Positions 1,362 to 23,933 of a stretch of DNA of 35,741 bases are shown one piece after another. Where the stretch lies: NCBI GenBank assembly GCA_902760755.1, contig CACWHK010000020.1, forward strand, positions 1 to 35,741, written 5' to 3'. The DNA comes from an uncultured Lachnospiraceae bacterium. GTDB taxonomy: Bacteria; Bacillota; Clostridia; Lachnospirales; Lachnospiraceae. The first letter of the stretch is position 1. Each line of letters starts with the position of its first letter. The translations under genes were made by a program, and so were the position numbers. The notes below the pieces were generated by a model. That model searched no databases. It saw nothing but the letters and a program-made list of their open reading frames with translations, and was not told the DNA's origin.

Positions 1362-1781
1362 TTACGCCTCATAGGTTGCGCAGTTATTCGGGGTTTCATA
1401 TACCCGAACGGCTGATACCGGATAGCCGGCAGACTTCATATAGTCAAAGAAATACTTTGCGAAGTTCTCCGCCGTCGGTCGGAAGGGGAATTCCAGGATT
1501 CGGAAGTTCTCCTCCTTCAGGGCAGCCAGGGTAGTCTCCCTGAGGCTCCCTTCCTCGATCAGAAGGCAGTGATCCAGACGCTTCGTCTCTCCACGGAGCA
1601 CGTCCTTCACATCCGAGAAGTCCAGCACCATCCCGCGGCACTGTCCTTCCTCCTGCAGCTCCTCCTTGCAAAGCTCCACCTCCACGGTCCAGCGATGGCC
1701 GTGCAGATTCGAGCATTTCCCGTCGTATCCCTTCAGAAAATGCGCACTGTCGAAGCATCCTTTCACTTGAACCTTATACAT
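1362..1781 (-). CDS. queD: 6-carboxytetrahydropterin synthase QueD
   Basis: Makes 6-carboxy-5,6,7,8-tetrahydropterin from dihydroneopterin triphosphate, the step between FolE and QueE. The chosen start is the ATG at 1779-1781, giving 139 residues. It has an AAGAAGGGA ribosome site 5 bases upstream, and the family's N-terminal strand (MYKVQVKGCFDSAHF) starts there. The longer frame from 1853 adds 24 unrelated residues that would be read through a terminator hairpin. Zinc ligands His14, His27 and His29 (SAHF, HGH), the catalytic Cys23 and the late YETPNN glutamate motif are all present. It is the first gene of queD-queE-folE. A terminator-like hairpin ends only 18 bases before the start, so expression may be controlled by readthrough. 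Confidence 0.94.
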   Translation of the reverse strand: MYKVQVKGCFDSAHFLKGYDGKCSNLHGHRWTVEVELCKEELQEEGQCRGMVLDFSDVKDVLRGETKRLDHCLLIEEGSLRETTLAALKEENFRILEFPFRPTAENFAKYFFDYMKSAGYPVSAVRVYETPNNCATYEA

Positions 1782-1799
1782 TCGATTCCCTTCTTTCGT

Positions 1800-1830
1800 A
1801 AAAAAAGCGGACAGTCCACGACCATCCGCT
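1800..1830 (-). terminator. Rho-independent terminator or attenuator between thrC and queD
   Basis: Read on the minus strand, an 11-base-pair stem (1806-1816 with 1820-1830; two G-U pairs) closes a 3-base loop and is followed by an uninterrupted run of T. It lies 70 bases after the thrC stop and ends 18 bases before the queD ATG. It can end thrC transcription, but no promoter fits between it and queD. It may therefore act as an attenuator for the queD-queE-folE genes. Confidence 0.8.
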
Positions 1831-1865
1831 AAAAACAATTTCTGCTTTTTCAATAGTCCCGGTTT

Positions 1866-1893
1866 TGTATAGTTGGAGGGTACAAATGAACAA
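1866..1893 (-). promoter_or_regulatory. Possible weak promoter for the queD leader
   Basis: On the minus strand TTGTTC (1888-1893) and TATACA (1866-1871) are 16 bases apart, just after the thrC stop. Initiation here would give a leader of about 60 bases ending in the hairpin at 1806-1830. Both boxes are imperfect, so this is only a candidate. Confidence 0.3.
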
Positions 1894-1900
1894 CTGTCTA

Positions 1901-3388
1901 TTAAATTCCGAGGAAGCCCTTAACCACGGCCTCCATCTCTTCCTTCTCGCACACGGTCTTATGCAGCACCGGTGCACTGCGGATATCTTCGATGGCCTGG
2001 GGAACCTTTACTCCGGAAAGCTCGCTGAGCTTATCCACAAGCTCGAAATCCTCCTTACTGTCATAAGCCGGATCGATGGCGGTCATCACGCTTCTCGTAA
2101 ACTTGTACGGGCTTGCGGTAGAGGCGATCACCGTCGGTGTCTCATCTCCCGTCTCTGCCTTGTACATGTCATATACCGCAGCCGCAACGGCCGTATGGGT
2201 ATCGAGGATATAGCCATCCTCCTCGTAGATCGTCTTTATGGTCTTTGCCACGGTCTCCATATCCGCGAAGTTTCCGTAGAACTGAGCCAGTGCCTGCTTC
2301 ATCTCATCCGTGATGGTATATTTCCCTGTCTCGGAAAGCTCCTTCATCAGTGCTGCATTCTTCTCTGCATCATTTCCGGCGATCCGGTAGATCAGACGTT
2401 CCAGGTTGCTGGAGATCAGGATATCCATGGACGGAGACGAGGTCAGGATGAACTCGCGGTTCCGGTCATAGACACCTGTGGTAAAGAAGTCATACAGCAC
2501 CTTATTGTCATTGGAGGCGCAGATAAACTTATTTACCGGAAGACCCATAACGGATGCGTAGTAAGCAGCCAGAATGTTTCCGAAGTTTCCGGTGGGAACC
2601 ACGATGTTGATCTTGTCCCCGGCCTTGATCTCTCCGGACTTCACCAGCTGTGCGTATGCATAGTAGTAGTAAACCATCTGCGGCACGAGACGGCCGATAT
2701 TGATGGAGTTTGCGGAGGAAAACTGGAAGCCCTTCTCTGCCAGATACTCGCCTAACGCTTCGTCGCTGAACATCTTTTTAACGCCGGTCTGTGCATCATC
2801 AAAGTTGCCCGTGATGCCTGCCACAAATGTATTCTTTCCGCGCTCGGTCACCATCTGCTTCTCCTGGATGGGGCTGACGCCGGACTTCGGATAGAAAACT
2901 GCGATCCGGGTTCCCGGTACGTCCGCGAAGCCTGCCAGTGCTGCCTTGCCGGTATCACCGGAGGTAGCCGTCAGGATCACGATCTCACGGTCCATATGAT
3001 TCTTCTTTGCGGATGTGGTCATAAGGTATGGCAGGATGGAAAGTGCCATATCCTTGAATGCGATGGTCTTTCCGTGGAACAGCTCCAGGAAATGTGTTCC
3101 ATGGTGCTTTACCAGCGGTGCGATCATGGGATCATCAAACTTGGTATCGTAAGCTCCGTGGATGCAGTACTTCAGCTCCTCCTCCGTAAAGTCGGTGAAC
3201 ATGCGGCTCATAACCTCGTATGCCACGCCGCAGTAGTCCATCTTCGCCAGCTCCTCCAGCGGAAGATCAAGCGCCGGGATCTCATCCGGTACGAACAGAC
3301 CGCCCTCATGGGCGAGCCCCTGCAGGATCGCCTGCGATGCCGTTACTGCCTCATCCTTATTTCTCGTGCTTCTGTACAAAAAACTCAT
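1901..3388 (-). CDS. thrC: Threonine synthase
   Basis: PLP enzyme that converts O-phospho-homoserine to threonine. The start is taken at the ATG of MSFLYRSTRNKDEA (3386-3388), which has GAGGAGAG about 9 bases upstream. The longer frame from 3412 would begin in front of that ribosome site and adds only 8 residues. The product is 495 residues, normal for the long ThrC class. The PLP lysine is Lys112 in the AFKDMALS motif, preceded by the N-terminal YRSTR segment typical of the family. The SGDTGKAA and VPTGNFGN phosphate-binding motifs follow. It lies 54 bases after a 3D-domain protein in the same direction and may share that gene's promoter. It ends at the hairpin terminator at 1800-1830. Confidence 0.95.
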   Translation of the reverse strand: MSFLYRSTRNKDEAVTASQAILQGLAHEGGLFVPDEIPALDLPLEELAKMDYCGVAYEVMSRMFTDFTEEELKYCIHGAYDTKFDDPMIAPLVKHHGTHFLELFHGKTIAFKDMALSILPYLMTTSAKKNHMDREIVILTATSGDTGKAALAGFADVPGTRIAVFYPKSGVSPIQEKQMVTERGKNTFVAGITGNFDDAQTGVKKMFSDEALGEYLAEKGFQFSSANSINIGRLVPQMVYYYYAYAQLVKSGEIKAGDKINIVVPTGNFGNILAAYYASVMGLPVNKFICASNDNKVLYDFFTTGVYDRNREFILTSSPSMDILISSNLERLIYRIAGNDAEKNAALMKELSETGKYTITDEMKQALAQFYGNFADMETVAKTIKTIYEEDGYILDTHTAVAAAVYDMYKAETGDETPTVIASTASPYKFTRSVMTAIDPAYDSKEDFELVDKLSELSGVKVPQAIEDIRSAPVLHKTVCEKEEMEAVVKGFLGI

Positions 3389-8424: not shown

Positions 8425-8610
8425 TTAGTCCGAAGTAGCACTCCACCGGATTCTTCCCATTCCGGTGACAGTCCTGCAGTTGTTCACTACAGGCCCAGCG
8501 GATCCGTTCTGACCGGCGGATTCACTTCGGCGGCGTTCCCTTTTGCATCTCGTCGTTGGCTGTCAGGGCCTCGGGGATGTGACTCATGATTGCCGCGCCT
8601 CTACTTAACG
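8425..8610 (-). promoter_or_regulatory. Lysine riboswitch (L-box) upstream of dapA
   Basis: Read on the minus strand, the leader has the conserved L-box blocks in order: AAGTAGAGGCGCG with ATGAGTCAC near the 5' end, AAGGGAACGCCGCCGAAGTG, then TGAACAACTGCAGGACTGTC, and finally GGAGTGCTAC near 8435-8444. These match the lysC-type aptamer as I know it (AGAGGTGCG, AGGGGAGCGTCGCCGAAG, GGCTGTCA, GGAGGGCTA). The aptamer starts at the predicted transcription start of the promoter at 8616-8644 and is followed by the terminator at 8361-8399. Lysine binding should favour termination and lower expression of dapA, dapB and probably coaX and dusB. Confidence 0.95.
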
Positions 8611-8615
8611 GTTGC

Positions 8616-21395: not shown

Positions 21396-21401
21396 GTTTT
21401 G

Positions 21402-21474
21402 AGCTCCCGACGGGACTCGAACCCGTGATCTATTGATTACGAATCAATCGCTCTACCGACTGAGCCACGGAAGC
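21402..21474 (-). tRNA. tRNA-Thr (anticodon CGU)
   Basis: A 73-base cloverleaf on the minus strand. Acceptor GCTTCCG/CGGGAGC, D arm GCTC-AGTCGGTA-GAGC, anticodon stem ATTGA/TCAAT with loop TTCGTAA (anticodon CGT, reading ACG), T arm with GGGTTCGAGTCCC, discriminator U, CCA not encoded. It has its own promoter (21506-21534) and terminator (21361-21395), so it is an independent single-gene unit. Confidence 0.96.
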
Positions 21475-21611: not shown

Positions 21612-23657
21612 TTATTTGTTCATAAGAGCGATCATCTTCTCGAAGTCGTACTCCCGGATCACCTCCGCGCCTTCCGGTACGTCGATGATCTTATCGGTGA
21701 CAACCACCTCAGCCCCCGCCGGATCGGTGACAAGCTCGGTTGCCATCATCCGGAAGAACTCGTACACATTCATCACATCGGTGACGTGGAAGTAATCGGT
21801 AAGGAAGCGCATGTCTGTATCTCCGGCCACGCGCGCTCTGCTGTCTCTCGCCATGTTCAGCCAGATAAAGGTATTTGTGGTAAGATCCAGTCCGAACAGG
21901 TAGGCAAATGTGCTGGCACAGTTCACCAGAAAGGCGGACTGCACGGTCTTTGGCTCATAGATGAAGCCGGAGTCCTTGACGTCGCGCAGCATATAGCCTG
22001 CCTTGCAGAAGCACTCGTCGAAGTTGCTCCCCGAGAATACATTGTCGCAGAAGACCATGTACCGGAAGTCCGGATATATCTGACGGAACCGCTCCAGGTT
22101 GATGTCGAAGTACTCCGAACCGCCATGAAAACCACTGGTCTCATCGCCGGAATAGGTCACGGCCTCAGACTGTGCTTCGGCCATGGTTCTCCAGGAGAAT
22201 TCCCTCCGTCTTCCCTTCGTATCAATGGCGAAGCAGGAAAGATCGATATCGTTCACCTTCTCCCAGTAAGTGAAGGCGCGAAGCTTCTTCGTCTCTCCGA
22301 TGGGAATCCTTGTTCCCCGGGTCAGTACACCGAAGCCACCCTGGGATGCGGTCTCCTGCAGGGGCAGTGCGTAGCGCTGCATATCCGGGTCGATATAGAC
22401 CTTACCCAGACGTCCTGCCAGGTGTCGCTGCAGGATATTCCGCAGCTCTTTCGCCAGCATCCCGGCCTGTCCCACCGTGATATGGGACTTCCGACGGCGC
22501 ATCTCCTCCTCCGTCTCCTGATGGATCCGGAGCTTGTTATACTTTGTAAACCGGAAGGTTCGGGCTGCCTGATTTCGCTCGTAATTCGAGTAAGCCAGGA
22601 GCAGCTGGAGCAGTACGATGATATTGTCCGAATCCACATTTCGTACCACATACCCGAAATCCTCCAGGTCTTTGCAGCGGCTTAAAATGTAGTTCAGATT
22701 CCGGAGCACTGCACCGGAGCCCTTCTCCTTTTTCAGAAGCTCCATGGCAGCAACGACCTCACCCTCTGCCATGGCGCGCTCAAAGGAAGAATAAACCGAT
22801 TGGTTGTCCCGTCCGCGCATGGCATCCAGGAACTCCTGCTCCGCCACATTCTTTGCCTTAAAATGCAGATGATGCAGCAGTCCGTTCCATGCCTTCTTCT
22901 TTTCGAAGCAGGCCTTCAGATTACAGCGTCCCAACGAGAACAGCTTATGGATCAGAGCCGTGATAAGCTTCCGGTCCTGATTCCGAAGATTCAGCTGACT
23001 GAGATTCTCGTTCTGATATTCCTTAAAGTTCAGTACATCCACAAACCGGATCACATCCGAAAGATTCAGAAACTCTGCAAACTGCAGACTTCTGGTTTCC
23101 AGAAGGAGCAGGGTTGCCGTATCCTTAGAGGCCACGGTCTGCACCTTATGGTCATAGGTAAGGATGTACTCCCTTATCATATCAAACTGAGACTCGCTGA
23201 CCGGACGTGTGCCCGCCAGCAGCTGATCCGTTGCCTCGGCCAGAAGCTTTGCAGCCTCTTCCTCCGTTACGATACGGAAGTCCCGAATCTTTGCCTTCTC
23301 GTTAAATGCGGTCCGTTCCATCTGCTCTTCGAAGAGGGAATGCCCTGCCTCGGAGAAATCACCGATGCCGTAGGTAACAAAGTAGTGGAGCATCTGGTCA
23401 AAGATCAGCTGATCCCTCGACAGCTTACGGACACTTTCCGGGAAGCCCCTGTAGAAGGGGGCCGGAACATCCTCCCCCAGCTGCTTTGAGGCAAATGCGA
23501 TCATATCCGAACGCACCAGGGCCTCGCCCTCCGTGATCCGGATATTGAACAGATTCGCAAGCGAAAAAAGGGCCTCGAAGGGATGCTTCTCCTCCGTACC
23601 CTCTTCGCAGACCAGAATATGCTTTTCAAACAGGTATTCCTTAAAAATCTCCTTCAT
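21612..23657 (-). CDS. Large protein with helical N-terminus and TerD-like C-terminal domain
   Basis: A 681-residue cytoplasmic protein without signal peptide. Residues 1-120 (ALFSLANLFNIRITEGEAL, VPAPFYRGFPESV, FDQMLHYFVTYGIGDFSEA) and the all-helical 180-415 (AWNGLLHHLHFKAKN, AMAEGEVVAAMELLKKEKGSGAVLRNLNYILSRCK) look like HEAT-type repeats. Residues about 458-605 match the TerD tellurium-resistance/stress fold: LRAFTYWEKVNDIDLSCFAID, AVTYSGDETSGFHGGSEYFDI, YMVFCDNVFSG and FIYEPKTVQ, the pattern of acidic Ca-binding loops. From memory the whole layout resembles the MXAN_6230/SCO0854-type proteins, here without the RING finger. There are no other ter genes nearby. Its 5' side holds the permuted tRNA-like RNA at 23785-23933. 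AGGTGA is the ribosome site. The TerD call is fairly sure; the function is not known. Confidence 0.72.
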   Translation of the reverse strand: MKEIFKEYLFEKHILVCEEGTEEKHPFEALFSLANLFNIRITEGEALVRSDMIAFASKQLGEDVPAPFYRGFPESVRKLSRDQLIFDQMLHYFVTYGIGDFSEAGHSLFEEQMERTAFNEKAKIRDFRIVTEEEAAKLLAEATDQLLAGTRPVSESQFDMIREYILTYDHKVQTVASKDTATLLLLETRSLQFAEFLNLSDVIRFVDVLNFKEYQNENLSQLNLRNQDRKLITALIHKLFSLGRCNLKACFEKKKAWNGLLHHLHFKAKNVAEQEFLDAMRGRDNQSVYSSFERAMAEGEVVAAMELLKKEKGSGAVLRNLNYILSRCKDLEDFGYVVRNVDSDNIIVLLQLLLAYSNYERNQAARTFRFTKYNKLRIHQETEEEMRRRKSHITVGQAGMLAKELRNILQRHLAGRLGKVYIDPDMQRYALPLQETASQGGFGVLTRGTRIPIGETKKLRAFTYWEKVNDIDLSCFAIDTKGRRREFSWRTMAEAQSEAVTYSGDETSGFHGGSEYFDINLERFRQIYPDFRYMVFCDNVFSGSNFDECFCKAGYMLRDVKDSGFIYEPKTVQSAFLVNCASTFAYLFGLDLTTNTFIWLNMARDSRARVAGDTDMRFLTDYFHVTDVMNVYEFFRMMATELVTDPAGAEVVVTDKIIDVPEGAEVIREYDFEKMIALMNK

Positions 23658-23695: not shown

Positions 23696-23730
23696 ACAAC
23701 AATTCAGCATCCGAGGATGCTGAATGTTGT
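23696..23730 (-). other. Strong hairpin between the tRNA-like RNAs and the TerD-like gene
   Basis: ACAAC/GTTGT (5 pairs) plus ATTCAGCATCC/GGATGCTGAAT (10-11 pairs) with one bulged T. It starts one base after the second rod (23732-23793). No T tract follows, so it is not a standard terminator; it may cap the RNA or protect the downstream message. Confidence 0.65.
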
Positions 23731-23731
23731 A

Positions 23732-23793
23732 GGTTGATGATATTGCCGGATTCTCCAACCGAAAAGAAGTAAATCCGACTAGCTATCAAAACC
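23732..23793 (-). ncRNA. Second Y-RNA-like rod without tRNA module
   Basis: Read on the minus strand it folds as GG(TT)TTGAT/ATCAACC, then an internal loop AGCTA opposite AATATC, then GTCGGAT/ATCCGGC. A TTACTTC bulge on the 5' strand follows, then TTTTC/GGAGA closed by a GGTT loop. The 5' strand repeats that of the first rod (GAYAGCTAG...ATTTACTTCTTTT, 20 of 26 bases identical). The pairing partners differ, so the helices are kept by compensatory change. The two lowest pairs share bases 23792-23793 with the first rod. It may be part of the same transcript. No separate promoter was found. Confidence 0.55.
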
Positions 23794-23933
23794 CTGACGA
23801 TATCGGTCCATTATTTTGGGGCGATGCTCTAACCTTTGAGCTACAGCCGCAAGCAGCTGACGGGATTCGAACCCGCAACCTTCGCCGTGGTAACAAAAGA
23901 AGTAAATGAACCTAGCTGTCAGGGAATATGATC
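23785..23933 (-). ncRNA. Circularly permuted tRNA-like RNA on a long stem (YrlA/Y-RNA-like)
   Basis: On the minus strand the tRNA 3' half comes first: GGCGA (23886-23882), variable AGGTT, T arm GCGGG-TTCGAAT-CCCGT, acceptor CAGCTGC, U73. After two T residues, one of them U73, the 5' half follows: GCGGCTG (from 23850), TA, D arm GCTC-AAAGGTTA-GAGC, A26, TCGCC (23824-23820). The acceptor pairs 7/7 (G3-U70), the anticodon stem 5/5, and the invariant bases (T8, A14, G18 G19, A21, T54 T55 C56 A58) are present. The flanks extend the stem: TTTTG/CAAAA, GGTTCATT/AATGGACC and CCCTGAC/GTCAGGG, with AGCTA opposite GATATC and a TACTTC bulge. The tRNA acceptor end is therefore closed and the RNA ends pair, as in bacterial YrlA-type Y RNAs. 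A true permuted Gly(ACC)-like tRNA gene is the alternative. Confidence 0.7.

Follow-up and report, generated by a model that had tools for sequence, protein, structure and literature searches.

Y RNA-like rods, some bearing a permuted tRNA module, travel with the gene of a TerD-like protein in Lachnospiraceae and phages

A rod bearing a tRNA with swapped halves and a second, shorter rod lie ahead of the gene of a 681-amino-acid (681-aa) TerD-like protein in an uncultured Lachnospiraceae bacterium, and RNAs of this kind travel with that gene among its relatives. We judge it likely that the locus encodes a Y RNA ribonucleoprotein with a protein other than Ro, bound at the rod, whose tips present parts of tRNAs. 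The DNA analyzed, referred to as the window, is the 35,741-nucleotide stretch of contig CACWHK010000020.1 (assembly GCA_902760755.1); L and G numbers are our labels for loci and genomes.

Results

A permuted tRNA-like module on a rod

Features of the locus are collected in Table 1. On the minus strand, RNA 1 runs from 23924 to 23792 in the order rod, tRNA 3' half, TT, tRNA 5' half, and rod, which bears out the succession of swapped halves noticed in a sequence-only reading of this DNA. It can fold as a rod that carries the tRNA with its anticodon-stem strands outermost. Recounting yielded 7/7 pairs in the acceptor (one G-U), 5/5 in the T-stem (one G-U), 4/4 in the D-stem, and 5/5 in the anticodon stem (TCGCC with GGCGA), the acceptor and anticodon-stem counts being those already reported. 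The 20 bp of flank pairing in three helices claimed in the same reading are reached if the anticodon stem is included; the flanks proper contribute 15, of which 7 make up the outer helix and 8, one of them G-U, the inner helix, with an asymmetric AGCUA/GAUAUC loop between the two.

Table 1. Features of the Y RNA-like locus in the window
Feature	Position	Strand	Details and evidence
RNA 1, YrlA-type Y RNA bearing the permuted tRNA-like module	23792..23924	-	YrlA, A6, R2
RNA 1 rod, 5' side	23905..23924	-	outer helix 23918-23924, AGCUA loop 23913-23917, inner helix 23905-23912; A6
RNA 1 rod, 3' side	23792..23812	-	inner helix 23805-23812, GAUAUC loop 23799-23804, outer helix 23792-23798; A6
Conserved UACUUC after inner helix	23899..23904	-	mostly invariant or nearly invariant columns in A3 and A6
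Permuted tRNA-like module	23820..23886	-	anticodon strand, T-arm, acceptor 3' strand, TT, acceptor 5' strand, D-arm, anticodon strand
RNA 1 tRNA 3' half		-	anticodon-stem strand GGCGA 23886-23882; T-arm 23876-23860; acceptor 3' strand 23859-23853
RNA 1 tRNA 5' half		-	acceptor 5' strand 23850-23844; D-arm 23841-23826; anticodon-stem strand TCGCC 23824-23820
RNA 2, short Y-stem hairpin without tRNA module	23732..23791	-	R1 59.6 bits, E 7.2e-11 (RNA 2 is among the 20 R1 training sequences)
Terminator-like hairpin between RNA 2 and 681-aa gene	23702..23725	-	scan: 1 found, shuffles mean 0.6
681-aa partner gene	21612..23657	-	predicted helical N-terminal region and TerD-like C-terminal region; related to NF041916 (MXAN_6230/SCO0854 family)

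The free energy of RNA 1 differed weakly from that of shuffles (minus strand, 171 nt, z -1.55), and the plus strand of a similar stretch (149 nt) scored z -2.50. Free energy alone is unconvincing for RNA 1, whereas the comparative evidence is strong. ARAGORN called no ordinary tRNA at this place, and a DNA search found the locus to be single-copy in its own genome. The single promoter-like site reported by a scan ahead of RNA 1 on the minus strand is a 9/12 match, and such sites are no commoner here (1 found) than in shuffles (mean 1.0). TT joins the acceptor strands, leaving RNA 1 without a free acceptor end able to carry CCA. RNA 1 is not a permuted tRNA gene, since a short loop closes its acceptor end.

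At curated Rfam thresholds, the window contained solely a lysine riboswitch (8428-8611, minus strand, 117.7 bits) and one tRNA, identified by ARAGORN as tRNA-Thr (CGT; 21401-21474, minus strand); the latter lies downstream of the partner gene and is also found in L041. With an open threshold, the Rfam YrlA model (RF02553) matched 23822-23884 with 40.6 bits (E 1.1e-7 in 451 bases), below its gathering score of 69. TROVE-linked RNAs at L136 and L137 were likewise below this cut-off (39.9 and 39.8 bits). In the alignment, RNA 1 shares with the YrlA model the order T-arm, acceptor hairpin, D-arm, and, as in YrlA, the RNA ends form a closing stem; the permuted order as such is thus no novelty, being an arrangement already represented in Rfam. 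Unlike YrlA, RNA 1 has its own rod sequence (AGCUA/GAUAUC and UACUUC), belongs to arrays, and lies beside a partner gene that is not TROVE.

Conservation of the tRNA-bearing form

A scan of genome contigs with a profile of protein alignment A1 detected 191 relatives of the 681-aa protein, of which 80 loci were kept, going by title mostly from rumen and gut Lachnospiraceae and other Clostridia. Alignment A6 comprises 31 tRNA-bearing rows, namely 29 of 35 script-listed candidates, the window, and L008 (left out were L065, L082, L108, L149, L151, and one misplaced L103 duplicate). The paired segments are conserved in these relatives: 29 of 36 pairs showed changes on both sides, 95.9% of 1061 cells were paired, and the covariation score was 0.585 versus 0.207 in shuffled alignments. 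Of the 15 pairs that make up the two rod helices, one was invariant, and in the other 14 both partners varied.

The covariance model R2 represents the tRNA-bearing form and was built from the window and relatives; on RNA 1, a training sequence, it scored 116.3 bits. At 54 bits or more, 43 matches were obtained in 83 sources, covering 35 of the 80 loci (29 with a training row), the window, and L008, with most places being training rows. Among the matches outside training, R2 scored 123.6 bits on an extra copy in L048, 114 in L103, 96.7 on an extra copy in L046, 91.3 in L096, 90.9 in L065, 89.4 in L108, which has a long acceptor-loop insert, and 82.1 in L082. Structure is conserved both in the rod and in the tRNA module.

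A family of short rods

RNA 1 and RNA 2 have a common rod, made up of an outer helix, an asymmetric AGCUA/RAUAUC loop, an inner helix, and UACUUC, and repeated rods with the core GCTAR-N5-YTTACTTC are located upstream of the gene in most of the 80 loci. Twenty hand-picked short rods form alignment A3, the source of covariance model R1. In A3, 90.0% of 270 cells were paired, 12 of 14 pairs had changes on both sides, and the covariation score was 0.716 versus 0.272 shuffled; removal of one faulty row left 238 of 256 cells paired and still 12 of 14 pairs changed on both sides. R1 produced 93 matches in 743,783 bases, nearly all on the same strand as the gene and up to about 650 nt upstream of it, the exceptions being L106, with its match 3' of the gene, L069, with one lying 2.5 kb upstream, and L103, whose array extends to 1.5 kb upstream. 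Among these matches, which are model-aligned and hence biased toward the model, 91.9% of 1265 cells were paired, and 13 of the 14 pairs had varied in both partners.

RNA 2 recalls YrlB (RF02565) in being shorter, lacking a tRNA module, and lying beside a YrlA-type RNA, by analogy with the Salmonella operon rsr-yrlBA-rtcBA as given in PMC7790460. However, RF02565 had no significant match over RNA 2 (14.4 bits, E 6.8) and none at E <= 2 in nine further loci with short hairpins, and the assignment of these hairpins to YrlB was rejected on these searches. The terminator-like hairpin that follows RNA 2 has near-identical counterparts in L041 and L042.

Linkage to the partner gene and the search for Ro

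An R1 or R2 match was present in 69 of the 80 loci, upstream of the gene in 66, 2.5 kb away in L069, and downstream in L096 and L106. The 11 loci without a covariance-model match include three that cover at most 2 nt upstream of the gene and one that covers 212 nt; in L077 and L080, a rod with a T-arm was recognized by eye, and L055, L067, L070, L086, and L088 showed no rod in the 420 nt inspected. The RNAs often occur several per locus, forming arrays. In 29 of 63 loci, a promoter-like site preceded the first core by no more than 80 nt, compared to 9.6 in base shuffles.

Among 200 genomes of the family, the protein was encoded in seven (in pieces in G092 and G194), and R1 matched in six, all of them among those seven; two of the six (the window's genome and G073) had supplied an R1 training sequence. 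The seventh, G194, encodes a distant relative of the protein adjoining an R2 match of 73.4 bits (L007). On G092:C278 (L006, L008, L010), the partner gene is interrupted, with a transposase-like open reading frame (ORF), assigned by eye, between its pieces, and both RNAs remain upstream.

TROVE was found in none of the 34 genomes with the protein or a relative, including the window's own genome and, with a distant relative, G194, nor in any of 19 phage, plasmid, or viral records, some of them fragmentary. This search spanned 37 genomes; G265 and G304, which encode distant protein relatives only, contain TROVE, and G020 has no protein match. Because TROVE was not found in the window's own genome (88% complete) or elsewhere among these 34 genomes, the partner is probably not Ro. 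Of the two genes named as candidates in the sequence-only reading, neither rsr nor rtcB was found in that genome.

The partner protein

No Pfam family matched the 681-aa protein, PF02342 (TerD), TROVE, RING, and nuclease families included. NCBIfam NF041916 matched residues 284-607 of this protein (P0001) with E 1.3e-25 and 89.7 bits, under a cut-off of 600, and also most scanned phage relatives, with the exception of L169; the matches fall in the C-terminal half of this MXAN_6230/SCO0854 RING family. Pfam found no RING in the 681-aa protein. An hhalign comparison aligned TerD to residues 445-548 (probability 69%, E 4.4e-5), and TROVE weakly (probability 15%, E 0.0018). By profile comparison, the earlier label "TerD-like" appears fair for part of the C-terminal half, although Pfam did not detect TerD.

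AlphaFold modeling with 73 sequences (pLDDT 88.5, pTM 0.87), which superseded a poor model from 6 sequences (pLDDT 69.1), predicts a helical N-terminal part and a beta-rich region from about residue 450. Foldseek retrieved no PDB chain at E <= 1e-3 for this model; among the matches listed, the query-length TM score was at most 0.14 and Ro60 was absent. Phage proteins matched over the full length, the best being A0A8S5LVH0, "Putative tellurium resistant like protein" (E 3.5e-40, TM 0.79, BFVD). Neither a TROVE domain nor a Ro60 fold was found in the protein by Pfam, by Foldseek against PDB at E <= 1e-3, or in the weak hhalign comparison.

Variable tips of the rods

Some rods carry a T-arm alone at the tip (e.g., L043.2 and L047.2). 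ARAGORN called native-order tRNAs in or beside the array in L115 (638-711, called tRNA-Ile) and L103 (3063-3135 and 3460-3531, both unassigned); these tRNA-like sequences occupy array places where other loci have the permuted form. Rods of L050 and L053 and the phage rod of L155 contain GACUGUUAAUC, with a short hairpin at the tip or adjoining the rod, and the same letters occur in the TROVE-linked L136 and L137. We take this sequence to resemble the anticodon arm of tRNA-Asn.

Tip classes were also assigned by script, which misplaced the right arm in many tRNA-bearing RNAs (21 of 151 permuted, versus 43 R2 matches of at least 54 bits in a somewhat different set of loci), and its tip-class counts were therefore set aside. 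Its count of T runs (19/151) is affected by the same misplacement. An anticodon arm was scored in 14 of 117 hairpins without T- and D-arm, against a mean of 3.6 in mononucleotide shuffles, a count that is merely suggestive since several of the 14 are unlike anticodon arms.

Relation to known Y RNAs

R2 matched 175 of 299 genomes of the phylum at E <= 0.001, and tandem tRNA genes reach 50.6 bits with this model. Scores of at least 60 bits were obtained in five of the 299: the window (116.3), G427 (78.7, L171), G265 (74.5, L136), G304 (69.8, L137), and G202 (62.4, L174). The matched RNA adjoins TROVE in G427, G265, and G304 and RtcB in G202. Given these matches beside TROVE or RtcB genes, we assign RNA 1 to the bacterial Y RNA superfamily, and together with the Rfam YrlA match and the conserved rod they support the proposal of the sequence-only reading that it is a Y-RNA-like tRNA mimic. 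This screen was incomplete, with stricter filters, and Rfam YrlA found two more RNAs in the window's own family (L016 and L020).

Rfam YrlA matches occurred in 68 of 100 genomes of the wider family. To judge by the 16 loci L015-L030, at 14 of which ordinary tRNA genes were present, a good share of them are tandem tRNA genes, and these were discounted. L016 and L020 have no tRNA gene at the YrlA match. In both, L016 (G013, 1501-1611; YrlA 38.5 and R2 26.6 bits) and L020 (G046, 1501-1604; YrlA 36.8 and R2 53.8 bits), a YrlA-type RNA lies between an adjoining RtcB gene and a Band 7 gene, identified by Pfam in L016 and by eye in L020. They resemble the window locus in having a YrlA-type match without adjoining TROVE, but differ in their lower R2 scores and in their neighbors, since neither a TROVE nor a TerD-like gene was found among the ORFs in flanks of about 1.5 kb. 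These RtcB/Band 7 loci indicate that the TerD-like protein is not the sole possible non-Ro context. In L012 (G020), a YrlA-like RNA (1501-1596; YrlA 45.7 bits; R2 40.6 bits, in the range of tandem tRNAs) has no ARAGORN tRNA gene, and the DUF2828/DUF7788 gene just downstream of it (1774-3096) possibly encodes another Y RNA partner.

Phages, RNA repair genes, and tRNA clusters

Nine viral contigs encode the protein (38-51% identity; two pairs are apparent duplicates), all nine with R1 upstream; R1 was weak in the viral L149 and L151 (E 0.011), and R2 scored 73.4 bits on L149. In distant phage relatives, R2 matched beside the gene in Rhodococcus phage Weasels2 (L162, 66.7 bits), Rhodobacter phage RcXuper (L159, 52.3 bits), Synechococcus phage S-CRM01 (L169, 51.3 bits), and Ruegeria phage RpAliso (L168, 46.1 and 38.1 bits). 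Compared to the tandem-tRNA level of 50.6 bits, solely L162 is well clear, L159 and L169 are just above, and L168 is below; ARAGORN called no tRNA at any of these four places, and a transfer-messenger RNA (tmRNA) call in RcXuper ends 8 nt inside the start of the R2 match. Among 16 distant relatives (L007, L121, L122, L124, and L158-L169), five had R2 matches of at least 46 bits beside the gene, and 11 had none in flanks of 1.5 to 3 kb.

In RcXuper (L159, 613-1176) and RpAliso (L168, 1-549), a permuted-family tmRNA is located just upstream of the Y-RNA-like match, beyond which come the TerD-like gene, then a (tRNA) nucleotidyltransferase gene, and then tRNA-Tyr. The nucleotidyltransferase gene is next in both phages, and one is annotated as acting on tRNA.

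In the searched flanks, rtcB was found at four of 80 bacterial loci (L047, L097, and, with rtcB on both sides, L043 and L044), against a rough expectation of 0.4 that assumes two copies per 3 Mb; L043 and L044 share one arrangement and possibly count as a single case. Irrespective of position, RtcB was encoded in 26 of the 34 genomes. On a Variovorax sp. WDL1 plasmid (L164, 1-4551), a gene for an NF041916 RING protein lies three small genes from a divergent rtcR, and R2 had no match beside it. Several loci are in or beside tRNA clusters. In L060 (1067-6952), the partner gene is inside a cluster of 28 tRNA genes, and six tRNA genes lie downstream in L062. A neighborhood screen found no gene family at more than nine of 87 loci (80 bacterial and seven viral), and hence no wider conserved operon was seen.

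Discussion

The RNAs and the TerD-like protein probably constitute a ribonucleoprotein that presents parts of tRNAs; from sequence and comparative data, we infer its expression, binding, and function. By analogy with Ro, which binds the Y RNA stem, the 681-aa protein would bind the common rod. The variable tips, which may be a permuted tRNA body, a T-arm alone, or, occasionally, a tRNA in native order or a hairpin resembling an anticodon arm, would present tRNA parts to tRNA-handling enzymes and might gate, tether, or decoy such enzymes during tRNA damage. Phages that carry tRNA clusters could use this particle to shield or manage tRNAs that anticodon nucleases of the host attack. For the Ro system, PMC8394870 and PMC7790460 describe tethering of Rsr to PNPase by YrlA and a possible inhibition of anticodon nuclease by the tRNA-like domain. 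The two systems have the RNA superfamily in common, and rtcB or rtcR is near some of the loci studied here, as in Ro-type loci. In contrast to Rsr/Ro60, the protein described here is TerD-like with a predicted helical N-terminal part, without TROVE by HMM and without a Foldseek PDB match at E <= 1e-3.

Among other explanations, a cis-acting leader, through whose hairpins the mRNA of the protein would be regulated, in translation or termination, by the protein itself or by tRNA levels, fares best, and we regard it as unlikely. The usual position of the RNAs just upstream of the gene on the same strand would suit a leader, as would the terminator-like hairpin that separates RNA 2 from the gene in the window and recurs in L041 and L042. 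However, the RNA lies 3' of the gene in L096, L106, phage Weasels2, and L007, and that of L106 has its own TTGACT/TATAAT-like promoter and a T run at its end. Moreover, related YrlA RNAs are known as separate small RNAs, and arrays of rods with differing tips are unlike a single leader.

Neutralization of the protein by the upstream RNA repeats, as in type III toxin-antitoxin pairs, appears quite improbable to us. It would fit repeated, related RNA motifs ahead of a protein gene, the terminator-like hairpin that separates them in the window, and carriage of the pair by phages. Yet the RNAs are related to Y RNAs, and the 681-aa protein has no match to a nuclease family and is far larger than type III toxins. 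Finally, the view that the halves of RNA 1 are decayed remnants of two tandem tRNA genes, which match the same models with up to 50.6 bits, can be dismissed considering the R2 scores (116.3 bits in the window, a training sequence; 82 to 124 bits at seven untrained places; at least 54 bits in 35 of 80 loci, 29 with a training row), the covarying rod, the acceptor that closes on TT, and the A6 pair counts, which contradict it.

Beyond the ribonucleoprotein reading of the window locus, a broader proposal is that of a second kind of Y ribonucleoprotein, in which a TerD-like helical protein would take the place of Ro, with one protein per array and interchangeable tRNA-mimicking tips, serving bacteria and phages as a tRNA-decoy display in tRNA damage and repair; we consider the case for it evenly balanced. 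Y RNAs with a permuted tRNA module are already known, and phage YrlA is mentioned in PMC7765460. As far as searched, three things are new: a partner other than TROVE, arrays whose tips are interchangeable, and the family of short rods, for which no significant Rfam match was obtained where tested. No link of TerD, MXAN_6230, or SCO0854 to Y RNAs was found in a literature search that stopped short of the main Y RNA papers, so that a published link is possible.

In the literature consulted, bacterial Y RNAs are treated as partners of Ro/TROVE proteins. If the proposed ribonucleoprotein is real, a Y RNA module can persist beyond its protein or exchange it for another. These RNAs occur beside the gene of a little-known protein in many rumen bacteria and several phages, and tests can start from a defined protein and RNA motif in named strains. 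The tips would represent a natural series of tRNA mimics on a single scaffold, and their carriage by phages with tRNA clusters makes a role in tRNA attack and repair directly testable.
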